From a virus: a DNA stretch of 64,000 nucleotides. A program made the translations under genes and the position numbers. Positions within the stretch are counted from its first letter, which is position 1. The number at the start of each line of letters is the position of its first letter. Location: IMG/VR virus record IMGVR_UViG_3300028275_000304, positions 1 through 64,000 of that record. One strand, written 5' to 3'. The notes under the pieces were generated by a model that worked only from the letters and a program-made list of their open reading frames with translations, did no database searches and had not been told where the DNA came from. Below, piece after piece: positions 2-63,049 of the stretch.

Positions 2-493
2 CCTGAAACACTCTATGCATGGAGTAAGTTTCTGGGAGAGGAGTTTGTAATAAAGAGCAAGGGAGTGGCCCTACGTTATTTCAATGTGTATGGACCAGGA
101 GAAATGCACAAAGGAAACATGGCTTCTATTGCTCATCAATCTTATAAGAAACATCAGCTTGGAGAAGAAGTGATGCTCTTTCCAGGACAACCTGTGAGAG
201 ACTTTGTGTATATAAAGGATGTTGTAGATGCAAATTTGTATGCCTGGCAGCATTACAATGAATTCAAAGGAGGATGGTTTGATGTAGGAACAGGAGAGCC
301 CAGAACGTTTGAGAATGTTCTAGAGATAATGGATATACCATTCAAATACAAGTTCAAGTTTGAAATGCCTGACAACTATCAGATGTTTACCAAGGCTGAT
401 TTGTTTATGCCTGGTTGGGAAGCTAAATACAATTTGGAGAAAGGGCTAGAAGAATACAAAGCAATGCTTAGTCTTTCTTCAGTCCATATCTAA
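2..493 (+). CDS. hldD: ADP-glycero-manno-heptose 6-epimerase-like SDR protein, 5' partial
   Basis: The frame is open from base 2, so the N-terminal Rossmann half lies outside the window. The visible part begins P-E-T-L-Y-A-W-S-K-F-L-G and contains the YxxSK catalytic Tyr-Lys pair of extended short-chain dehydrogenases. RYFNVYGPGEMHKGNMAS and RDFVYIKDV follow; they match the C-terminal half of HldD/RfaD, which converts ADP-D-glycero- to ADP-L-glycero-manno-heptose for LPS inner core. The YQMFTKADL segment also fits HldD. It is the only plus-strand gene at the left end and converges on the minus-strand late block, overlapping the DUF2061 gene by 26 bp. A different nucleotide-sugar epimerase is possible, but the HKGNMAS segment favours HldD. 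A role in modifying a glycan, with the GT9-like gene nearby, is inferred. Confidence 0.8.
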   Translation, partial: PETLYAWSKFLGEEFVIKSKGVALRYFNVYGPGEMHKGNMASIAHQSYKKHQLGEEVMLFPGQPVRDFVYIKDVVDANLYAWQHYNEFKGGWFDVGTGEPRTFENVLEIMDIPFKYKFKFEMPDNYQMFTKADLFMPGWEAKYNLEKGLEEYKAMLSLSSVHI

Positions 494-680
494 TCCATTT
501 ATACCAAATACGCTCATGTAGGTAATATTGTATAGGCTTGTACACTAGCTCAGCTACACCAAATGCAGCTCCTATTTTCACACTTCCTGTCACTAGCCAC
601 ATAATACCAAACCCAATGAGTGTGCTGACAATCCTGTAGCTGATTGTTTTGGCTATATGTCTTTTCTTGCTTACAGTCAT
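468..680 (-). CDS. DUF2061 small membrane protein
   Basis: A 70-residue protein with two hydrophobic segments (roughly residues 15-32 and 36-50) and a basic C-terminus. The pattern KTISYRIVSTLIGF followed by a second membrane span and HERIWYKWIRYG is that of the DUF2061 family of short inner-membrane proteins of unknown function. As I recall, DUF2061 genes in bacteria often lie beside sulfate-activation genes, which would fit the APS kinase two genes upstream. The start codon overlaps the stop of the upstream adenylyltransferase gene (ATGA), so the two are translationally coupled. It is the last gene of the minus-strand block and its end overlaps the convergent epimerase gene. Its biochemical role is unknown. 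Confidence 0.75.
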   Translation of the reverse strand: MTVSKKRHIAKTISYRIVSTLIGFGIMWLVTGSVKIGAAFGVAELVYKPIQYYLHERIWYKWIRYGLKKD

Positions 681-1075
681 AGCTTACCTTCTACTTTCAT
701 TTGCTCACGGATTTTTGTAGCAGATATGTCATGTATCTCCTGAGGGGGTACGTGTTCTATGACATCATAACCAACACCCCTACCAATATTAATAGATTCA
801 ATATCAGGTATAGTAATAACCCTAACTCTTCCTGATTCAACCAAGTCTTTAAGTTCATCGAATAAGTTTAACATCACTTGATGTGCGGTCCAAGGATTCT
901 TCTCATCTGGTTCTACATCTCTTATACAGAGGAGGACATTCTTTCCTTCATTGAGTCTCTGGTCAATTAACCATCTGTGTCCAGCGTGCCAGGGTTGCCA
1001 TCTTCCTATAAACATAGAATATTTCTTGTCATTGGAAGAAGTGGGTCCTGCTGATCTAGCCAAGAAGTTTTGCAT
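677..1075 (-). CDS. GRxQPxHxGH nucleotidyltransferase (small adenylyltransferase)
   Basis: 132 residues. The nucleotidyltransferase core starts at residue 21 with MFIGRWQPWHAGHRW, giving HxGH at 30-33. ISATKIR at 117-123 is the second nucleotide-binding signature of the HxGH/ISxTxxR superfamily. The segment NPWTAHQ near 60-66 resembles the NPFTA segment of NadM-type NMN adenylyltransferases. Its place between an APS kinase and DUF2061 instead suggests an ATP-sulfurylase-like role making APS. It is far shorter than classical ATP sulfurylase. I cannot choose between adenylylating sulfate, NMN or a sugar phosphate from sequence alone. It overlaps the APS kinase gene by 20 bp; Met21 is an alternative start that would remove the overlap. 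Confidence 0.75.
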   Translation of the reverse strand: MQNFLARSAGPTSSNDKKYSMFIGRWQPWHAGHRWLIDQRLNEGKNVLLCIRDVEPDEKNPWTAHQVMLNLFDELKDLVESGRVRVITIPDIESINIGRGVGYDVIEHVPPQEIHDISATKIREQMKVEGKL

Positions 1076-1499
1076 GTGTCATTATTTTAGTTATACAGTC
1101 CTCTATGGATGTTGTAGAAGTGTTCAGACGAAGAACACGTTCATCATCTCCAGGCTCTTCAAAATCCTTTACATGAAATGATTCCCTGCCTCTAGGCTCA
1201 TCATATGTCAAATAAACCCAATAGACAGAGTCACACAAGCTGTTGAGGTAGTCTCTAGCTTCCTTATATGGATATACGAGAGATAGGATGATGTCATCCC
1301 CAATAGTGCTCATGAACGTAGCAATATCACTAGCCCTGTTCAGATTCTTGATTCTCCCCTCTCTGCTGTAATCTTTGTTCACAAATATCTCTCTGAGCTT
1401 GTCTCCATCAATGTTTACAATAGTAAACCTTTCCTTTATAAGCGCATCAGCCAATGTGGACTTTCCACAATTAGGCTGTCCAAATAACACTATAATCAT
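1056..1499 (-). CDS. cysC: Adenylylsulfate (APS) kinase
   Basis: 147 residues, slightly shorter than bacterial CysC (about 200). It has a P-loop GQPNCGKST (7-15), then the DGDKLRE motif (31-37) and the DYSREGRIKNLNRASDIA stretch typical of APS kinases. IILSLVYPYKEARD corresponds to the family's substrate-binding segment. The expected reaction is phosphorylation of APS to PAPS, the sulfate donor used by the sulfotransferase encoded immediately upstream. Start and stop overlap the neighbours (4 bp with the sulfotransferase, 20 bp with the nucleotidyltransferase), so the three genes form a tight translational unit. Other small P-loop kinases are less likely because of the DGDxxR/S-x-x-x-R combination. 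Confidence 0.85.
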   Translation of the reverse strand: MIIVLFGQPNCGKSTLADALIKERFTIVNIDGDKLREIFVNKDYSREGRIKNLNRASDIATFMSTIGDDIILSLVYPYKEARDYLNSLCDSVYWVYLTYDEPRGRESFHVKDFEEPGDDERVLRLNTSTTSIEDCITKIMTHAKLLG

Positions 1500-2317
1500 T
1501 TTGAATATCTAAAATAGTCATAAAACCATTTGTAGTTGTTGTATATCCAATCAACTACATCTTTCCCTAACAATGCTTTTGCTCTAGAAGGAACAGGCTC
1601 TAGCTTTGTTCTAATGACATGATCACCAAATGCTCCATACACTTCATCATCCTCCTTAGTAATTTGCTCAATGTTATCAAAATCATGGTGGTAGTGTGGT
1701 ATACCAAGGTATTGATATATCCTTGTCATCTCTGTTTCTGGATAGAGACATAGGTCTTCAAATTTAATGAATAATATTTTAGTATTAATACCTAGTCTAA
1801 ATATCTCAGCTAGTCTTTCAATAGCTAGTCCTACAGGAGGATTCTGTGACCAGATATCAATACGCTTTGGTACAGTAGTACCTTGACCTTTAGACCAATC
1901 CAAAATGTCTGATTGCTTCTCAGGATGCTTTCTGAAGTTGTTCTCCATAGAAGCAAATACATCACGTAGGTCTCTAACCATGCAAATGATTTTAGGTTCA
2001 CCACCTTGTACAAACTGTAAGAAATCATAGTGAATACCCCATCCACGAGACTTATCTATCACATATTTTTTATCTGTAACAGCATTGTAGAATGCATCCA
2101 TTCCAGCTTTAGCAAATGCTTGCCATCCTGTTTTCATTAACTCAGGATCTTGAGCTTTAAACTCTGCTGAGTTTGTATAGTTAGCACGTGCACCAAATAT
2201 AAGTTCTAACACACCACTTGTAGGTGTAGCGTATATATCAGGATTTTGAGCTAGTATGTTTTGTAATAATGTACTTCCTGCTCTAGGCAATGAGCTTTGA
2301 TAGAATATCTTTTCCAT
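1496..2317 (-). CDS. PAPS-dependent sulfotransferase family protein
   Basis: 273 residues. The N-terminal SSLPRAGSTLLQN (8-20) is the 5'-phosphosulfate-binding loop of sulfotransferases. MVRDLRDVFASMENNFRK (113-130) is the 3'-phosphate-binding motif, with Arg115 and Ser123 in the expected places. The rest (YLGIPHYHHDF and a C-terminal helix) fits bacterial glycan or small-molecule sulfotransferases. It would transfer sulfate from PAPS to a hydroxyl of an unknown acceptor. Together with the APS kinase it makes a coherent donor-plus-transferase pair. The acceptor could be host LPS, capsule, or a glycan on the virion; the sequence does not say which. Confidence 0.82.
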   Translation of the reverse strand: MEKIFYQSSLPRAGSTLLQNILAQNPDIYATPTSGVLELIFGARANYTNSAEFKAQDPELMKTGWQAFAKAGMDAFYNAVTDKKYVIDKSRGWGIHYDFLQFVQGGEPKIICMVRDLRDVFASMENNFRKHPEKQSDILDWSKGQGTTVPKRIDIWSQNPPVGLAIERLAEIFRLGINTKILFIKFEDLCLYPETEMTRIYQYLGIPHYHHDFDNIEQITKEDDEVYGAFGDHVIRTKLEPVPSRAKALLGKDVVDWIYNNYKWFYDYFRYSK

Positions 2318-2323
2318 GTTGGT

Positions 2324-3190
2324 TTATTTTAAGGAGTTAATTACAGCATCTACATTAAATATTTCAGACTCTTTGTTGTAAGGAAACTCAATAGGGTCAC
2401 CTCCAATATTATACTTACTTAGATAGGCATTTCTTAATTCTGGACTAATTGTTCCTGGGTTAGCTACAATGTTTGTATGTAAGTCATATCCAAACACCTT
2501 AGGACTGTTAGCAACCCACAACACTGTAGAAGGTTTATTCAAAGCTGCAGCTGCATGTTGTCCAAAGCTATCCATTAACAATCTCTTTTCACTAAGGCTT
2601 ATAAGAACAATCAATGCTCTGAAGGTATCAGACACAGCAAATGTTCCTTCATAACCTATCTGATCTTCTCTCTTTATATGAACAATGTTATACTTCTCTC
2701 TAAACTCATGTATAACATTCTCTACTATATAGCTAGGAATATCTCTAGCCCAAGAGTATTTCTGTTCTGTCTCAGCACCACCATTAGTTTGCATCAAAAA
2801 AATAGGCTTATCAGAAACAAATTTTTTGCTAAAGAAATCTATTTCTCTCTGTGTAAGAAATAGCTCTCCAACAGTCTTTGTTACTGGTAAACCGTACAAA
2901 TTACACCATGTTTCAATAAGGTGTTCATCTTGTTTAATGTGCTTTGCTTCCAAGTATGGATCGTGTGCAAATACCATAATCTCTTGATTCTCAATGTATT
3001 CCTTATAGAAATAAGCCTGTTGTCCAAAAGCGTATGCTCTGTCAACATTCTTATTACCTAAGAATACATCTGGATAACCAGAGACAACAATAAGTTTACT
3101 ATCAGGATACTTAGCCTTGATAGAAGCACAAATGGCGGTACCAGCAATCACCTTGCCAATACCGCCATTAATTTGGAATATTATATTCAT
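2324..3190 (-). CDS. Glycosyltransferase family 9-like (heptosyltransferase-like) protein
   Basis: 288 residues with a Rossmann start MNIIFQINGGIGKVIAGTAI, the Gly-rich opening of GT9 (ADP-heptose:LPS heptosyltransferase) proteins. The C-terminal half carries LLMDSFGQHAAAALNKPSTVLW, which matches the SxxxHxAxAxxxPxVxLF donor-site region of the family. It is shorter than classical WaaC/WaaF (about 320-350). A well-formed Bacteroidota-type promoter lies directly upstream (3210-3240), so this gene heads the surface-modification operon (3190 to 468). The HldD-like epimerase nearby would supply the matching sugar nucleotide. Donor and acceptor are inferred. Confidence 0.68.
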   Translation of the reverse strand: MNIIFQINGGIGKVIAGTAICASIKAKYPDSKLIVVSGYPDVFLGNKNVDRAYAFGQQAYFYKEYIENQEIMVFAHDPYLEAKHIKQDEHLIETWCNLYGLPVTKTVGELFLTQREIDFFSKKFVSDKPIFLMQTNGGAETEQKYSWARDIPSYIVENVIHEFREKYNIVHIKREDQIGYEGTFAVSDTFRALIVLISLSEKRLLMDSFGQHAAAALNKPSTVLWVANSPKVFGYDLHTNIVANPGTISPELRNAYLSKYNIGGDPIEFPYNKESEIFNVDAVINSLK

Positions 3191-3485: not shown

Positions 3486-6458
3486 TTAAACTAAATTGTT
3501 TCTTTTGATTATATCCTCTAAGGTAGCTATTTTTTGTTCTTGAGCATCAAATTTAGCACTTAATTCTTGTAATGCTTTAGTAAGAACTGGAATTATTTTC
3601 TCTGGACTTAGAGACATTTCATCACTCTCTGCACTTCTACCTACTGCTTCTGGTATAATTGGTTCAACCTCTTGAGCTATGAAGCCAATTTGTCTATTAC
3701 ATCCTCTAGTTTCTCTTGCTGTTTCATTCCAGTCAAAGCTAACAGGGTTCAGTTTTTTAACATCACATAATCCATAAGAAAGACCACAGATGTTTGTTTT
3801 TAAACGTATGTCAGAGCTATTTCTAACAATCACACCATTTGTTCCAACACATAAAGCAACTGTTGTACCTACAAGATTACAAGCCCACAATTGGTTTGAT
3901 GCAAAAGAACAAGCAATACTGTTAACAATACAACATCCAAATACTCCTGAATAATTTCCAGAGGCTGTATTACCCATACCTCCTAGGATTACTGATTGGC
4001 TACAACAAACCGTGTTAAAATAACCACCTCCAATAAATGAACCATCACCGTCTACTATATTACTACCACCTCCAACTACTGCAGAATAGTATCCACGAGC
4101 AGCATTCTGGTATCCATTACCAATAAATGATGAGTAACCACTAGCACTATTTGCACATCCACCAACAATAGTTGAGTATTGATTACTAGCAAAGTTAGAA
4201 GTACCGCCTCCAATAAATGTATAATATGCACTAAATGAGTTGTTGTAATTAGGGGCAATACAGTTACCAGTACCACCCACAATAGTTGCAGTATTTGAAT
4301 ACCCATCTATTATGTTATAACTTCCTCCACCTATAAATGAACGCTTAGAACAAACTGTATTATTACACCCACCTACTATTGCTGAATAAGCTGGATGAAT
4401 TGTATTACTACGGCCACCTACAATATTTGAATTATTTGAGCAAACTGTATTATACTGTCCACCTCCTATAAATGAGTTTGAAGAACCTATACTTCCAGTG
4501 ATGGTTGTAAAATCACAATAGAAAGAGGAGCAAGTCGTTGCAATTACAGTGGCAGGTATCCAGCCGTAGTAGTTACTCACAGTAACCTGTCCTGTCATTA
4601 GACCATAAGTGGCTGAGTTCATCGTTACTGTAGAACCATTTGGGAACATTGATGTAACATCTCCGTAAGAGCTATTTAATTGCAAATAGCCCATTCCATA
4701 TAAATTGGAATTTGTTATATTATATGTACAAGACACATATTGTGCTGCTGTGTTATTTGTACCTCCTACTATACTTGTAGCTAATCCTCCGTTTGTATTA
4801 CATTGTCCACCACCTGCAAAGCTATAATCTCCACATGCAGTATTACTAACTCCACATCTAAGTGTAGAATTACAACCTGCACCTGCAACCATAATTCCAC
4901 CACCACCTGCAGTGTATGGAACTAACATTCCATTTGCATCAGTACAAACAGCACAACCAGCAGTTGCTAAGTTAGCTGCAATTAATCTATTGGCTTTGAA
5001 TGAACAAGCTACAGAGTTAGTTAATCCGCAGCCAAATACTGCACTATATGGAGCAGATGCTGTATTACCCCTACCACCTAATACTACTGAGTTATAACCA
5101 CTTGCTGTATTTAATAAACCGTTAACAATTGCTGAATAAGATCCACACGCTTGGTTACCATCTCCTCCACCAACAGTTGAGTTTTGTCCATAAGTATAGT
5201 TATAAGTACCACCTGCAATAGATGAACAGTCTCCTCCATTCACATTAAACCTTCCTCCACCAATAAATGAATAATTTGAAGATATAGTATTATATTGTCC
5301 ACTTACTATTGCTGAATGTATTCCACAAGCTGTATTATACATACCTGCTCCTATAAATGATTCACCAGCGCCAGCCGTATTAAACGCTCCTGTACCAACA
5401 AATCCTCCATAATATGCTACGTTGCAATAACCACTACTAACAGTTGAATAACCAATACCAGCAATATTACACTCACCACCACCTATAAATGCGGAATATC
5501 CTCCTGATATTGTATTATATCTTCCGCCAACAATAGCAGATGAGAGTGTATTACATGTTATGTTATTATTATATCCTGATAGTATGGTAGATGAACCAGC
5601 TGAGTTTGGATTCCAACAGTTGCTACTAATAGTATTACAGAATCCTGATAAAATACTTGAATTTTGTGAACAAACAGTATTAGTATTTCCTCCACCAATA
5701 AAAGCATTTGTGGTATACATGCCGCTTATGGTGTTATAGTAACCTCCAGAAATAGTGTTTGTATTATAATCACTACTAATAGTATTACAGTTACCTCCAC
5801 CAATAAAGTGAGCTTGGGCTGTTCCATATGTTCCAGCAGTAATAGTATTATAGTTACCTCCAGAAATTGTATGAGAAGAACCACAAATTATATTATAAGA
5901 TCCTCCACCAATAAAGCTCCAACCCTCATAGCCTGATAATGTTAAGATTTGATTACACTCTCCTCCAGCTATAGTAGAAAATCTAGTTTGATTTATATTA
6001 AATTTTCCACCTACAATTGCTGAGTTACATGTACCATTACTATTACTGATTATATTTAGATATCCACCACCAACAAATGAGTGACACCCACCAGCTGTAT
6101 TACATTGACCACCTCCAGCAAAACTATAATCACCTGGTGCTGTATTATTAACACCACATCTAATAGAAGAACAAGTACCAGAACCAGCAGTAAAGATTCC
6201 TATTCCACTAGTTCCACTTGGGCCAGGGATGCCAGATAACGTGATGGTCCAATTAGTTATAACACCTGCGTCTCCACAAAATTGACAAGGTTTAAGAACT
6301 AGTTCTCCAGTTCCACTATTATATGAAACAATTTCACCCCATATGTAAGAATTAACACCATCATACAACTGCACAAAGTCGTTTGCATTGAATGACAATC
6401 CTGTTTGGGTAGTAAGGGTTATATTGTCATAACATCCACAAGGAGAGCAATTAGGCAT
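3486..6458 (-). CDS. Tail/head fibre with YadA-like head repeats and C-terminal S74 intramolecular chaperone
   Basis: 990 residues. The N-terminus (1-85) is Cys-rich followed by a small beta domain ending in IPGPSGTSGIG. The body consists of many 14-20-residue repeats built on S-x-I-x-G-G-G-x-x-N-T, like the left-handed parallel beta-roll heads of trimeric adhesins. The last about 115 residues are a Peptidase_S74 intramolecular chaperone: SSDIRLKTNI, then LNPVSFDW, IGFIAQEVE and a C-terminal coiled coil. S74 domains trimerise fibres and then self-cleave, with the Ser and Lys of the SDIRLK segment being the expected dyad. The repeat body occurs twice: residues near 480-560 resemble the region just before the chaperone. 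An insert at about 575-650 interrupts the repeats. Likely a receptor-binding fibre. Confidence 0.85.
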   Translation of the reverse strand: MPNCSPCGCYDNITLTTQTGLSFNANDFVQLYDGVNSYIWGEIVSYNSGTGELVLKPCQFCGDAGVITNWTITLSGIPGPSGTSGIGIFTAGSGTCSSIRCGVNNTAPGDYSFAGGGQCNTAGGCHSFVGGGYLNIISNSNGTCNSAIVGGKFNINQTRFSTIAGGECNQILTLSGYEGWSFIGGGSYNIICGSSHTISGGNYNTITAGTYGTAQAHFIGGGNCNTISSDYNTNTISGGYYNTISGMYTTNAFIGGGNTNTVCSQNSSILSGFCNTISSNCWNPNSAGSSTILSGYNNNITCNTLSSAIVGGRYNTISGGYSAFIGGGECNIAGIGYSTVSSGYCNVAYYGGFVGTGAFNTAGAGESFIGAGMYNTACGIHSAIVSGQYNTISSNYSFIGGGRFNVNGGDCSSIAGGTYNYTYGQNSTVGGGDGNQACGSYSAIVNGLLNTASGYNSVVLGGRGNTASAPYSAVFGCGLTNSVACSFKANRLIAANLATAGCAVCTDANGMLVPYTAGGGGIMVAGAGCNSTLRCGVSNTACGDYSFAGGGQCNTNGGLATSIVGGTNNTAAQYVSCTYNITNSNLYGMGYLQLNSSYGDVTSMFPNGSTVTMNSATYGLMTGQVTVSNYYGWIPATVIATTCSSFYCDFTTITGSIGSSNSFIGGGQYNTVCSNNSNIVGGRSNTIHPAYSAIVGGCNNTVCSKRSFIGGGSYNIIDGYSNTATIVGGTGNCIAPNYNNSFSAYYTFIGGGTSNFASNQYSTIVGGCANSASGYSSFIGNGYQNAARGYYSAVVGGGSNIVDGDGSFIGGGYFNTVCCSQSVILGGMGNTASGNYSGVFGCCIVNSIACSFASNQLWACNLVGTTVALCVGTNGVIVRNSSDIRLKTNICGLSYGLCDVKKLNPVSFDWNETARETRGCNRQIGFIAQEVEPIIPEAVGRSAESDEMSLSPEKIIPVLTKALQELSAKFDAQEQKIATLEDIIKRNNLV

Positions 6459-6525
6459 GTTGATATATTAAGGTTGTTTTGTAAATTTAATTATATTGGT
6501 TGAGTTGTTGTAGTGGTTGTGGTAC

Positions 6526-6565
6526 ATGTACCAATTTGTGTCAACATATACCAATTTGTGTCAAC
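6526..6565. repeat. 20-bp tandem duplication at the end of the collagen-like fibre gene
   Basis: Bases 6526-6545 and 6546-6565 are two head-to-tail copies differing at one position. Reading the minus strand, the first copy encodes TQIGIC and then runs into a TGA stop. With one copy removed the frame would read on through TQIGTC and a Thr run to a TAA at 6491. Because 20 is not a multiple of three, the duplication shortens the protein. Confidence 0.85.
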
Positions 6566-9258
6566 GTTGTACCATTATCAGCATAAGGATTTCCTACAGA
6601 ATCACAGTTACAGAATTGACCAGTTGGGTCACCACTGCTTAATGTAATTGTTTGAGGATCACCAGTATAACAGTTGTAATAATGAATCACATCACCTCCT
6701 TCAGGAATAGTTGCTCCATTATACTCCCAATTTCTACAGTTGGCACATACAAAAGCGGTAGTAGTAGTGGTTGTTGTACATTCTACCAAAGGTAGTGTGA
6801 TTGCACTTGAGCTTGTACCAACATACACTGAAGACGCACCACTTGTTCCACTAGTACCGCTTGATCCACTTGTACCTGAACTTCCATCCACACCAGATGT
6901 TCCGTTGATTCCTGAGGTTCCAGATGAACCAGATGTGCCATCAACTCCAGAAGTACCTGATGTTCCATCCACACCACTTGTACCTGAAGTTCCACTAGTA
7001 CCATCAACACCTGATGTTCCTCCTGTTCCATCAGTACCTGATGTTCCACTTGTTCCACTAGAGCCTGCTGTGCCTGAACTACCAGAGCTTCCAGAAGACC
7101 CAGACGATCCACTAGTTCCTGCAGTGCCAGAGGTTCCGCCACTACCGTCAGTACCACTTGTACCAGCACTGCCACTAGATCCAGAAGATCCAGATGTTCC
7201 ACTGGTTCCCCCACTACCATCTGTTCCTGAGCTACCTGCTGTACCGCTTGTGCCTGAAGATCCAGCTGTACCACTGCTACCAGATGATCCAGAGCTGCCA
7301 GAACTTCCACTCGTACCTGTAGTGCCACTCGTACCACTGGTTCCTCCTGAACCATCAGTGCCGCTAGTGCCTGATGTACCTGATGTAGCGCTTGTTCCAC
7401 TACTACCAGATGTACCTGTGGTGCCAGACGTACCAGATGTACCATTAGATCCATTAGTACCAGATGTACCTGAAGTTCCAGATGTAGCACTTGTACCAGA
7501 TGTTCCAGTGGTTCCTGAGGTGCCTGAGGTGCCTGTAGTTCCAGACGTGCCATCTATTCCACTTGTACCAGATGTGCCACCAGTACCTGATGTGCCTGTT
7601 GTACCACTACTACCACTTGAACCAGAAGTTCCTGTAGTACCAGACGTACCTGCTGTAGCAGACGTACCACTTGTTCCAGAAGTACCATCTGTACCGTTAC
7701 CACCTGTAGCACCATCTAGGTTCACTTCCCAAGATGAATATGTACCAGAGCCAGTTTGTCCAGTCACTTGGAAGCTTAAGCTACCAGTGTTTGGATCATA
7801 TGATGTAACGACTGCTTCATTGTGTTTGAAAGCATCGCCTGAATAAGTTATAATGATTGATTGCCCCAGAGTGTATGCCAGTCCTGTACCCACTGTAATA
7901 GTGCCTGTACCAGGAGGGGCTTGTATTGTATATGTGGTGGAGGATGTTGTAGCAAATCTATCACCACTCAAACCTGAAGATCCTGATGTACCTGTAGTAC
8001 CACTTGTTCCAGAAGTGCCTGATGTAGCACTCGTACCACTGGTGCCGCTTGTTGCACTTGTACCAGATGTACCGCTTGTACCTCCAGATCCGTCTGTTCC
8101 ACTGGTTCCTGAAGTGCCAGAAGTACCACTTATGCCAGTGGTTCCTGATGTGCCACTTGTTCCTGCAGTGCCACTAGTACCAGACGTACCTGCTGTACCA
8201 TCTGTACCACTGGTTCCAGCTGTACCACTGGTTCCTGATGTACCTGTTGTACCAGCAGTTCCACTTGTGCCTGACGTACCTGATGAACCTCCTGTACCAT
8301 CAGTGGCAGATGTACCACTTGTACCACTACTGCCAGATGTTCCTGTAGTTCCGCTTGTTCCACTTGTACCTGTAGTACCTGAAGATCCAGAAGTCGCACT
8401 CGTACCACTTGTACCTGAAGTTCCTCCTGTTCCATCAGTTCCAGAAGATCCTGATGTACCAGAGGTGGCAGAAGTACCTGACGTACCACTGGTACCACCT
8501 GTACCATCTGTTGCTGACGTACCTGATGTACCACTTGATCCACTTGTTGCAGACGTACCACTTGTAGCACTTGTACCGCTTGTACCTGTGGTTCCACTAG
8601 ATCCTGAGGTAGCTGATGTACCAGACGTGCCTGATGTGCCGCCAGTACCATTTGTACCGCTTGTGCCTGATGTTCCACTGGTTGCACTCGTACCACTCGT
8701 ACCAGTGGTACCAGAAGTACCTGTTGTGCCGCTTGTACCAGAACTACCAGCTATGCCACTAGTTCCACTCGTAGCGCTTGTACCACTGGTCCCACTGGTC
8801 CCACTGGTTCCTGAGCTACCGCTTGTACCAAACGTTCCATCTGCACCTGAAGTACCACTGGTCCCACTGGTTCCAGAAGTTCCAGAAGTTCCAGAGCTTC
8901 CTGCCAAACCATTGGCAAAAGCTGCTTCTATTTTCTCAATGACTGTCTGAACATTATCGTTGGTGTTAATTTTTGTATAGATCAAATTGGGTCCTTCATA
9001 GAACACACAAGTGGCGTTCAATATAATTGGACAAGGGTTAGCAGCACATATGACTGGGCTGGTTGTAAAAGAATCATTTTGGCTATGATTGCCAAAGAGT
9101 TTAGATATGAACGGTACTTTGTCTGAATCATTAACTGGTTCAGGATCAGGCACATAGGTATATATCGGTGTATTATCTACACAGTCAGGAGTTGACTCAC
9201 CTGAAGTACCAGATGTGCCACTACCCCCATATTGGAGTATATTAGGAAGTACGTTCAT
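6541..9258 (-). CDS. Collagen-like (Gly-Thr-Ser repeat) fibre protein
   Basis: 905 residues. The N-terminus contains CVFYEGPNLIYTKIN (near 79-93) and a D-x-x-x-x-x-I-x-K-I continuation, an anchor-like module shared with three other proteins here. Residues about 120-430 and 515-815 are Gly-X-Y triplets dominated by GTSGTS and GSSGTS, a proline-free collagen-like rod. A beta domain sits between them (about 432-515). The C-terminal about 80 residues form a Cys-rich module that starts after a short Thr run, contains C-x-N-W-x-Y-N-G, and ends in TLTQIGIC. A similar module ends the 174-residue protein at 35081-35605. The end appears truncated by a 20-bp tandem duplication. It is probably a trimeric virion fibre. 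Confidence 0.8.
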   Translation of the reverse strand: MNVLPNILQYGGSGTSGTSGESTPDCVDNTPIYTYVPDPEPVNDSDKVPFISKLFGNHSQNDSFTTSPVICAANPCPIILNATCVFYEGPNLIYTKINTNDNVQTVIEKIEAAFANGLAGSSGTSGTSGTSGTSGTSGADGTFGTSGSSGTSGTSGTSGTSATSGTSGIAGSSGTSGTTGTSGTTGTSGTSATSGTSGTSGTNGTGGTSGTSGTSATSGSSGTTGTSGTSATSGTSATSGSSGTSGTSATDGTGGTSGTSGTSATSGTSGSSGTDGTGGTSGTSGTSATSGSSGTTGTSGTSGTTGTSGSSGTSGTSATDGTGGSSGTSGTSGTAGTTGTSGTSGTAGTSGTDGTAGTSGTSGTAGTSGTSGTTGISGTSGTSGTSGTDGSGGTSGTSGTSATSGTSGTSATSGTSGTSGTTGTSGSSGLSGDRFATTSSTTYTIQAPPGTGTITVGTGLAYTLGQSIIITYSGDAFKHNEAVVTSYDPNTGSLSFQVTGQTGSGTYSSWEVNLDGATGGNGTDGTSGTSGTSATAGTSGTTGTSGSSGSSGTTGTSGTGGTSGTSGIDGTSGTTGTSGTSGTTGTSGTSATSGTSGTSGTNGSNGTSGTSGTTGTSGSSGTSATSGTSGTSGTDGSGGTSGTSGTTGTSGSSGSSGSSGSSGTAGSSGTSGTAGSSGTDGSGGTSGTSGSSGSSGSAGTSGTDGSGGTSGTAGTSGSSGSSGSSGSSGTAGSSGTSGTSGTDGTGGTSGVDGTSGTSGTSGVDGTSGTSGVDGTSGSSGTSGINGTSGVDGSSGTSGSSGTSGTSGASSVYVGTSSSAITLPLVECTTTTTTTAFVCANCRNWEYNGATIPEGGDVIHYYNCYTGDPQTITLSSGDPTGQFCNCDSVGNPYADNGTTLTQIGIC

Positions 9259-47421: not shown

Positions 47422-48594
47422 TTACGGAATCAAAGTTGTAGTAGTAGAAGTAGAAGGCCATACAGTGGTTGTTGTAGAAGTGGTAGTTACACAAACTCCA
47501 TTCTCATCAGCCACAGCACCAAGACCAGCTACAAGAACAGCCTCAATTGCAGCTTCAGCAGCGCTATCTTTTTCAACAGCAATGATTACAGTGCTATCTT
47601 CTTTGATATAATCGCCCCAGCTGTAAACAGACTTGTCATACTCATTGAACTTGATGTAATAGGTGGTGTAGGTTGTACCATCGCTCACCCAAGATTCAAA
47701 GTTCTCGTTGTAGCCATTCATTCTGTAAAGATGCTTCAAGTAACCAGCTTGATAGCTGTAGAAGTTCTTTTCTAATTGTGCAATCTCAGCAGAAGTACCA
47801 GTGGCGTAAGAAGAACGCTGTACAACTACAGGATCAGCAACAACGTTACAAGGATCGTACACAATGAAGTCAGCAGTTGTTGCTGGACCACTGTACACGA
47901 ATGTACGGAACCACATTCTGTCATACTCGAAAGGAAATGCTGCAACGTCACAAGGCTGACCATATTTAGTCAATGGTTTACCAGTGATACGCAAGAATGC
48001 GTTTGCATCATTACCAATTCTTTGGAACTGATAGAAATCAGACAAAGTGATGTTGTCAGGGTTGTTACCTGGAGCTTGCAAATTCAAATGATAGATTACA
48101 TCATCAATGAATGCAGGAACATCAACAGCAGCACAAGGGTTACCGTCACACTCACAACAAGGAGCATTTACAGTGACTGAACGAGTGAAACCGTTAAAAT
48201 ACAAAGTGTCTAAATAGCTAGAGTGAGCACGAAGTGTAAGGGTTACCACCTCACCACATTGTACATTCCAGTTTACTACATCAGTGATTTGAGTCAATGG
48301 TGTAGGACAACCGTTCACTTTATACCATTCAGTTACGTTGCTTTTGCAACCAGATCCTGAAGGACAACCTTTAATCTTATCAGAACGCTTAGAGCCTTGC
48401 AGATAAGTGTTGGTACGGCCCTGCGCAATATAGAAATAAGGAGAAGCAGCAATGTTACCAGCTGTGGCAACAGAGTAGTCAGCACGGTAGATACCCACCT
48501 GACCTGCTGTTAGGTCTTGCGTAGATCCAGAGCTAGGGAGCGCAGTTTGCCCTACTGGTACTACGAAGAGCGTAGTTAATGAAAAATCAGCCAT
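47422..48594 (-). CDS. Cys-rich major structural protein (auxiliary capsid candidate)
   Basis: 390 residues, beta-rich, with Cys groups GCPSGSGCK, CCECDGNPC and others, ending in a Thr/Ser run (TTTSTTTTVWPSTSTTTT). N-terminus: DFSLTTLFVVPVGQTALPS. No enzyme motif is visible. Its position three genes after the major capsid gene, in the region where crAss-like phages encode auxiliary capsid and head-fibre proteins, suggests a capsid decoration protein. The Thr-rich tail mirrors the linkers in the muzzle protein and may be a glycosylation site or tether. Assignment rests on position and composition. Confidence 0.6.
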   Translation of the reverse strand: MADFSLTTLFVVPVGQTALPSSGSTQDLTAGQVGIYRADYSVATAGNIAASPYFYIAQGRTNTYLQGSKRSDKIKGCPSGSGCKSNVTEWYKVNGCPTPLTQITDVVNWNVQCGEVVTLTLRAHSSYLDTLYFNGFTRSVTVNAPCCECDGNPCAAVDVPAFIDDVIYHLNLQAPGNNPDNITLSDFYQFQRIGNDANAFLRITGKPLTKYGQPCDVAAFPFEYDRMWFRTFVYSGPATTADFIVYDPCNVVADPVVVQRSSYATGTSAEIAQLEKNFYSYQAGYLKHLYRMNGYNENFESWVSDGTTYTTYYIKFNEYDKSVYSWGDYIKEDSTVIIAVEKDSAAEAAIEAVLVAGLGAVADENGVCVTTTSTTTTVWPSTSTTTTLIP

Positions 48595-62847: not shown

Positions 62848-63049
62848 TATATATGACATGAAGGTGCGTATTGTCAAGAAATGTTGGTATGACATAAATA
62901 GGTTTCCAACAATGAAGGACATATGTAATGCTACAGGGCTTACAGAAAGAACATTACACAGGTTTGCTAGGGATAATGATTTGCCTAGGAGGACAAGAGG
63001 TAGGATGAGGGAGCTGATGGTAGCAGAATACATTAAAAATAATTCATAG
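62831..63049 (+). CDS. Small helix-turn-helix protein
   Basis: 72 residues. FPTMKDICNATGLTERTLHR is a clear HTH with the recognition helix ERTLHRFARDN, followed by a basic stretch (LPRRTRGRMREL). It resembles AraC/Fis-like or transposon-type HTH units. It could be an early transcription regulator or a small DNA-binding subunit. A terminator lies about 110 bp downstream. Confidence 0.7.
   Translation: MEENLNIYDMKVRIVKKCWYDINRFPTMKDICNATGLTERTLHRFARDNDLPRRTRGRMRELMVAEYIKNNS

Follow-up and report, generated by a model that had tools for sequence, protein, structure and literature searches.

A phage gene cassette proposed to encode sulfate activation and sulfotransfer with a minimal ATP sulfurylase

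Nearly all biological use of sulfate is opened by adenosine triphosphate (ATP) sulfurylase. The accessible part of PMC3779200 names two kinds of this enzyme and gives the Sat motifs as QXRN, HXXH, GRD and SGTxxR, with the Gln and Arg of QXRN holding the sulfate. In phages, the accessible part of PMC10914622 describes transcribed adenosine 5′-phosphosulfate (APS) kinases from freshwater phages carrying cysC and cysH and treats these genes as assimilatory sulfate reduction; the words "sulfotransferase" and "nucleotidyl" do not occur in its main text. A phage CysH-type gene is the subject of PMC10434257, as far as its accessible part goes. Phage sulfotransferases are already known from annotated cyanophage records. 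The titles and abstract openings listed in searches of the open-licence literature, preprints excluded, yielded no small ATP sulfurylase that is neither Sat nor CysDN, no crAss-like sulfotransferase and no complete phage sulfation cassette. Here we describe a cassette of four genes at positions 468–2317 of a 64,000-nucleotide stretch of viral DNA, referred to below as the window (positions 1 to 64,000 of the IMG/VR record IMGVR_UViG_3300028275_000304, which has 78,117 bases). We propose, on comparative evidence throughout, that the cassette is quite likely a self-contained sulfation system. In this proposal the 132-residue nucleotidyltransferase encoded at 677–1075 on the minus strand, for which the shorthand ATase is used, would be a minimal ATP sulfurylase that is neither Sat nor CysDN.

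The cassette spans 1.85 kb and consists of four open reading frames (ORFs), all on the minus strand. Starting from the first gene, they are as follows, with PAPS standing for 3′-phosphoadenosine 5′-phosphosulfate:

1496..2317, minus strand: putative PAPS-dependent sulfotransferase of 273 residues, the first cassette gene (Sulfotransfer_3, Sulfotransfer_1, PHROG 27463, motifs)
1056..1499, minus strand: putative short APS kinase of 147 residues (APS_kinase profile, alignment, predicted fold)
677..1075, minus strand: minimal nucleotidyltransferase of 132 residues, proposed ATP sulfurylase (alignments, model, gene context, presence where CysD is missing)
468..680, minus strand: small predicted membrane protein of 70 residues with DUF2061 (PF09834, co-location with sulfate-activation genes)

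The ORFs and their Pfam matches bear out the four genes as named in an earlier note, which was made from the nucleotide sequence. The ATGA overlaps described in that note are present at two of the three junctions, 1496–1499 and 677–680, where they are 4 bp long; the kinase and ATase genes overlap by 20 bp instead (1056–1075).

The product of the first gene matches Sulfotransfer_3 (5.3e-17, 63.2 bits against a cut-off of 27), Sulfotransfer_1 (4.6e-12, 46.3 bits against 22) and PHROG 27463 (1e-42). A NoeE-like match of 34.8 bits lies far under its cut-off. In its sequence, residue 9 is the start of SLPRAGST and residue 115 that of RDLRDVFAS. We take these to fit the two PAPS-binding motifs, 5′-PSB and 3′-PB; the presence of both had already been read from the DNA in the earlier note. 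Custom patterns for the two motifs match 33 and 34 of the 36 sulfotransferases of the viral cluster, partial members included. Relatives of the protein encoded by cyanophages and marine viruses share 26.7–30.5% identity with it. The assignment of the gene as one for a PAPS-dependent sulfotransferase is supported by these matches. The product of the second gene matches the Pfam family APS_kinase (1.4e-10, 41.9 bits against 21.1). In an alignment of 33 sequences it keeps the P-loop, DGDxxR, RxxN and YPY motifs of APS kinases, and the residues G12, K13, D31, G32, D33, R36, R49 and N52 are invariant or nearly so. The AlphaFold model of the kinase (predicted local distance difference test score, pLDDT, 94.0) has APS kinases as its best Foldseek matches, the first being 7yq1 with bound APS (template modelling score 0.88). 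The phage kinase thus resembles CysC in the P-loop, DGDxxR, RxxN and fold. It differs in its length and in its lid, RDPKGLYKKA...FTGI in canonical CysC, which is shortened in the phage kinases aligned and full in many bacterial partners of ATase; it scores 40.5 bits against the cut-off of 138.7 for the equivalog-domain model TIGR00455. That the kinase and the sulfotransferase would form a PAPS-making and PAPS-using pair, as previously suggested, is supported.

The ATase matches the Pfam family CTP_transf_like (1.2e-4; 22.7 bits, cut-off 21). The motif GRxQPxHxGH, R52, P61, GRGxGY and SATxxR are seen when it is aligned in sets of 18 and 50 sequences. Thirteen columns are invariant among the 50 phage, bacterial and archaeal sequences: G24, R25, Q27, H30, G32, H33, P61, G98, R99, G102, Y103, T120 and R123. 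The HxxH and SGTxxR motifs of Sat are represented here by H30, H33, T120 and R123, with SAT replacing SGT; the sequence GRWQP stands at the place of the sulfate-binding QXRN loop. The order HxGH, GRG/GRD, SATxxR is that of Sat with QXRN missing, which is suggestive only; HxGH and S(A/G)TxxR are common to ATase and Sat as they presumably are across the wider HxGH superfamily. ATase resembles Sat/Met3 and PAPS synthase in its proposed reaction, in HxxH, in SxTxxR, in a G-R motif between them and in its fusion to APS kinases. It differs from Sat/Met3 in its size of about 115–160 residues and in the lack of the QXRN sulfate residues and of the PUA domain found in Sat. No match of ATase to the Sat profile PF01747 or to the PAPS_reduct and CysD profiles was obtained at E values up to 1. 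CysDN belongs to the PP-loop and GTPase fold families, which are unrelated to the ATase fold.

The closest solved sequences to ATase are those of NadM (E 1.3e-9), and the best NCBIfam match is the NadM-type PRK01153 with 37 bits. The similarity comprises the N-terminal half of NadM with GRxQPxHxGH. Foldseek aligns about 80 columns of the ATase structure model (pLDDT 89.1) with NadM, at 28% identity to 1m8j, and both matches with E below 0.001 are NadM-type. VIA-align returned PPAT and NadM chains with Z scores of 9.1–10.0 over 81–119 residues at root mean square deviations of 2.9–3.9. No Sat chain is among its best 50 rows, from which nothing is drawn. The structure predictions suggested in the earlier note, run for the kinase and ATase, thus gave an APS-kinase-like model for the former and a predicted NadM/PPAT-like fold for the latter. 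The NadM matches would fit a NadR-like pair for salvage of nicotinamide adenine dinucleotide (NAD), with ATase as an adenylyltransferase of nicotinamide or nicotinate mononucleotide (NMN/NaMN), the kinase as a riboside or NMN kinase and the sulfotransferase as an unrelated neighbour. Three of the 15 ATase genomes tested, two of them archaeal, likewise had no NadD match. The match to NadM, however, stops at about NadM residue 83: the whole-length model TIGR01527 gives 31.5 bits against a cut-off of 181.2, over profile positions 2–82 of 167. The stretch between this residue and SxTxxR, which in NadM presumably holds residues contacting NMN, takes about 22 profile positions in ATase versus about 46 residues in NadM. 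NadD is present in the other 12 of the 15 genomes. For the kinase, the best matches of both sequence and model are APS kinases, and the gene neighbours of ATase differ from those of NadM. Nor would NAD salvage explain three features described below: the pairing with full-length CysC, the absence of CysD and the neighbouring APS-reductase-like genes. A NadM-type NMN function, which had been named as the alternative for this enzyme, was judged unlikely from the half-length profile match, the presence of NadD and the gene context. We regard NAD salvage by the pair as very improbable.

The genomic distribution of ATase points to a role as an ATP sulfurylase. The sample consisted of 296 genomes, requested at a completeness of at least 80%, from the order of the ATase locus L111 (Flavobacteriales according to the record title; loci are numbered with L and genomes with G). 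Canonical CysC was found in 106 of these genomes, CysD in 183, Sat in one and a strong ATase match, defined as more than 130 bits, in seven. Matches of 19–26 bits in 22 further genomes, and a second match of 27 bits in G024, were taken as other nucleotidyltransferases and for this reason dropped. CysD is present in 97 of the 99 genomes with CysC and without ATase, and in none of the seven with both (Fisher p 1.5e-9, not corrected for common descent). Sat is missing from the same seven genomes. In all seven, ATase adjoins CysC, and NadD and Sulfotransfer_3 genes are present. ATase would thus share with CysDN, to which it has no sequence match, the genomic role of supplying APS to CysC. A second set comprised 50 genomes chosen for ATase from 80 loci; no completeness filter was applied to it, and genes absent there may be gaps. 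Forty-one of them match neither CysD nor Sat, eight have Sat and one has CysD. In 16 of the 50, ATase lies beside a canonical CysC with the full lid motif, and 14 of these 16 are without a CysD or Sat match. ATase would thus stand in for CysDN and Sat in genomes that need APS.

These counts also bear on the explanation that ATase is an accessory protein, for example regulatory or acting in the reverse direction, with APS coming from CysDN or Sat of the host and the phage only boosting PAPS. In its favour, nine of the 50 ATase genomes keep Sat or CysD. On the other hand, no known ATP sulfurylase is seen in 41 of the 50 or in any of the seven Flavobacteriales-order genomes with CysC and ATase, and an accessory role appears improbable to us. 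Among the ATase-bearing genomes without CysD or Sat (the 41 and two more), PF01507, the CysH/CysD family, was found in 0 of 43 and Sulfotransfer_3 in 29 of 43. Many such cells therefore seem to make PAPS for sulfation and not for assimilation, which is also implied by the phage cassette.

The proposed function is further supported by the gene partners of ATase. The best 80 of 431 bacterial and archaeal loci were taken; among these, gene calls with profiles identify ATase at 77 loci and the kinase at 69. At many loci the kinase is a full-length CysC with a complete lid (L111, 285 bits; L117, 265 bits). In seven bacterial loci kinase and ATase are fused as one protein, in the kinase-first order also known from the human PAPSS fusion. 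In L111, the gene row continues with three sulfotransferases. A different partner is present in three Nitrospira-type loci, L106, L109 and L112. In L106, ATase follows a CysH-type protein that exceeds the cut-off of the APS reductase model TIGR02055 (271.9 vs 235.3) and stays under that of the PAPS-specific TIGR02057 (164.7 vs 254.2). This protein is preceded in the same gene row by a sulfite reductase-TusA protein, and no kinase was found in the L106 locus. Its motif ECC(R/K)IRK is also encoded just upstream of ATase in L109 and L112, so that the partner in all three loci is an APS-reductase-like protein. All three genomes have Sat or CysD. The molecule common to the two types of partner, APS kinase and APS-reductase-like protein, would be APS. 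Beside these loci, it was noted by eye that in marine group III archaea and marine Bacteroidota (L103, L117 and similar) the kinase-ATase pair adjoins genes resembling those for S-adenosylmethionine synthetase and S-adenosylhomocysteinase.

A FastTree tree of 158 ATases, midpoint rooted, has three parts. The first contains SAR11 and two Stenotrophomonas phages. The second contains the ATases with canonical or fused kinases from Flavobacteriales, Nitrospira-type bacteria, Acidobacteria and others. The third contains Marinimicrobia and others together with all 79 metagenomic viral sequences, including that of the window. Within this viral part the ATases of L093 (bacterium TMED217) and L099 (Marinimicrobia) adjoin canonical CysC, the P-loop of which was found just upstream of the first-called start, and this ties the viral part fairly directly to APS. 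CysD and Sat are unmatched in the L099 genome; Sat is present in that of L093. The kinases of the SAR11 part, where aligned, have neither DGD nor the Asn of RxxN, and the ATP sulfurylase claim was not extended to this part. In the Pelagibacteraceae loci L140–L142, L144–L154, L156–L161, L163 and L164 the divergent kinase-ATase pair lies near methyltransferase and one-carbon genes, and it possibly uses a different substrate. In the Stenotrophomonas phages DLP_6 and Bhz60 (L082, L083) the pair forms one protein, the "kinase" of PHROG 10255, which has the same two components as the cassette and differs in its divergent kinase half and in that no sulfotransferase is annotated near it in the two loci viewed. 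In Bhz60 the fusion has a NADAR protein on one side and a DNA methyltransferase on the other.

The pair could in principle make another 3′-phosphorylated donor of the adenylyl-X or cytidylyl-X type, of which the Campylobacter phosphoramidate pathway is an example, so that the "sulfotransferase" would move X and not sulfate. The missing Sat sulfate-binding residues of ATase, the short lid of the phage kinase and the loss of the RxxN Asn in SAR11-type kinases would agree with this. It is opposed by the full-lid CysC beside ATase in 16 of the 50 genomes, by the APS-reductase-like gene beside it in three loci and by both PAPS motifs in the sulfotransferase, and we consider such a donor rather improbable.

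Several observations weigh against the function of ATase as an ATP sulfurylase. It matches neither the Sat nor the CysD family, and the Gln and Arg with which QXRN of Sat holds sulfate are not conserved. The phage kinase is without much of the canonical lid and falls under the TIGR00455 cut-off. The seven ATase-bearing Flavobacteriales-order genomes may represent few lineages, six of them scoring 163–168 bits and one 131. A replicate in Chitinophagaceae was uninformative, with ATase in one of 127 genomes, the query genome itself. In the order studied, two CysC-bearing genomes lack both CysD and ATase: G317 and G225, the latter with a CysC fragment that scores below cut-off. ATase would not be the only source of APS in the nine of 50 genomes where Sat or CysD is also present, and 14 of the 43 genomes without either showed no Sulfotransfer_3. 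The CysH-type protein of L106 scores above the cut-offs of two general PAPS-reductase models, NF002537 and TIGR00434, as well. Finally, the branch of SAR11 and the Stenotrophomonas phages may do something else, since its kinase is without the RxxN Asn. Taken together with the distribution and the gene partners, the data still support, by comparative genomics, the conditional claim of the earlier note that the small adenylyltransferase would make APS.

The order of the cassette genes, which the earlier note suggested looking for in other crAss-like genomes, is kept in many viral relatives. The best 80 of 562 viral ATase relatives were taken with the window locus, giving 81 loci. In 79 of them the kinase gene is encoded on the ATase strand and upstream of ATase. 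With intervening genes allowed, kinase, ATase and DUF2061 follow in order in 59 and all four cassette genes in 30. With all gaps at 100 bp or less, the counts are 62 for kinase and ATase, 30 with DUF2061 and 10 for all four; among these 10 are the window and L002, which encode identical ATases and identical sulfotransferases. From these counts the association of the genes is not due to chance. The kinase is not directly upstream of ATase in 17 of the 79 loci. The gap is about 350–420 bp, or about one gene, in 11 loci (in L015, the gap inspected, a HAD-like gene fills it) and 2.3–2.6 kb in six, where it holds ADP-heptose genes. In L047 and L065, the two loci without a kinase, ATase is at most 1.9 kb from the contig end. 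In a separate scan, 40 loci on 39 contigs were found through the sulfotransferase, with kinase and ATase in order in 32 and all four genes in 26.

The fourth gene is linked to sulfate activation by co-location and fusions. Its product matches PF09834 (9.5e-18). DUF2061 is present in 7 of 7 ATase-bearing genomes of the Flavobacteriales order versus 49 of the 289 others. In at least 36 of the 56 genomes of that order with DUF2061, no more than 4 kb separate it from CysC or CysD; in the seven with ATase it is not near CysC. In L137, L138, L155 and L162 it is fused to a full-length APS kinase.

We propose the following route. ATase would couple sulfate to the AMP part of ATP, with APS and pyrophosphate as the products. 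The short APS kinase, judging by its family and predicted fold, would phosphorylate the 3′-OH of APS to give PAPS. The sulfotransferase, as its family and motifs suggest, would move the sulfuryl group from PAPS to an acceptor. The acceptor is likely a decorated glycan on the host surface or the virion, a guess made from the neighbouring genes; according to the earlier note, its sulfation might change receptor access or superinfection. The DUF2061 protein might be a membrane helper, perhaps for sulfate supply; this too is a guess, made from its co-location with sulfate-activation genes.

The phage of the window is assigned to the crAss-like phages (Crassvirales), as predicted. Its capsid protein matches Crass_capsid PF23898 (90.9 bits, cut-off 27), and there are PHROG matches to portal and terminase families for the corresponding proteins. 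The portal matches 137 phage records; the 15 matches listed are mostly gut phages named "cr...", a naming that we take to mean crAss-like. The record from position 63001 on has apparent replication genes, and no further sulfur genes were seen there among ORFs of at least 90 residues read by eye. A 110-kb contig encodes an ATase and a sulfotransferase 100% identical to those of the window. In IMGVR_UViG_3300024354_000013 (110,063 bases; L256, L295) residues 1–32 of the sulfotransferase are encoded at both contig ends with 100% identity, and for this reason the contig may represent the same phage with its genome complete and circular. No match was obtained with the cassette in a distant DNA search of the phage collection or with window positions 47425–48594 in a protein search. 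The description of the cassette as crAss-like does not extend to its distribution. Crass-like carriers include 3300044730_000313, found through both capsid and cassette; a contractile-tail-sheath-like gene, of a cluster identified by eye only, is present in 36 of the 81 ATase loci, and crAss-like phages are therefore not the only carriers of the cassette. Carriers also include records of about 320 kb. In L077–L081, three of which are from such records, the kinase-ATase pair is followed by an N6/N4 DNA methylase; neither DUF2061 nor a sulfotransferase was recognised near the pair.

Genes for glycans and virion proteins adjoin the cassette in the window:

2324..3190, minus strand: possible glycosyltransferase, GT9-like, weak (RfaQ 14 bits, below cut-off)
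2..493, plus strand: ADP-heptose 6-epimerase-like gene, truncated at the contig end to its C-terminal part (heptose_epim 3.4e-29)
3486..6458, minus strand: tail-fibre-like protein with beta-roll repeats and a C-terminal S74 chaperone (Peptidase_S74 1e-13, LbR_Ice_bind 3.1e-9)

The first of these is present in 41 of the 81 ATase loci and 35 of the 40 sulfotransferase loci, often adjoining the sulfotransferase. One of three relatives matches Glyco_transf_9 with 14.8 bits, below cut-off, and the GT9 label is a possible one that rests on sub-threshold scores. The heptose_epim match covers profile positions 164–310 of 316, with residues encoded from base 65 on. A full-length version of the epimerase is part of the ADP-heptose gene set in L027:3421-6013, which includes kinase and adenylyltransferase parts of HldE, the HldD epimerase, a HAD phosphatase and a cupin. 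Such a split set lies between APS kinase and ATase in six phage loci; the families were checked in L027 only, and the clusters of L021, L028, L034, L052 and L074 are similar. A role of ATase as an HldE-type heptose adenylyltransferase was judged unlikely, as L027 has a separate HldE-type gene beside it. Positions 3486–9258 of the window, adjoining the cassette, encode the beta-roll/S74 protein of 990 residues and a collagen-repeat protein of 905 residues. A carbamoyltransferase, an FkbM methyltransferase and a GT25 enzyme form a glycan-decoration neighbourhood in relatives (L014:3904-5457, L045:4779-5573, L038:3814-5136). A short protein with a sulfotransferase-like start, NSPRTGST, is encoded between ATase and DUF2061 at L046:6399-6995; it has no Pfam match, and a member of the same cluster occupies the same place in L060. 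L053:6440-7030 was rejected as a possible sulfotransferase, as Pfam gave just a weak DUF1796 match.

Beyond the cassette itself, it is likely that a third kind of ATP sulfurylase, with about 115 core residues and related to the first half of NadM, exists with ATase as its founding member, and that 1.85 kb of phage DNA encode every step from sulfate to sulfated product. This kind would occur in phages, marine Bacteroidota, Marinimicrobia, Nitrospira-type bacteria and marine archaea, hidden under scores that resemble NMN adenylyltransferases. If true, a third, minimal ATP sulfurylase would close a gap in the predicted metabolism of those marine bacteria and archaea in which an APS kinase is present without any recognised ATP sulfurylase, and it would provide a very small enzyme for making PAPS. 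It would also mean that phages carry complete sulfation pathways, with which they would probably remodel surface or virion glycans.

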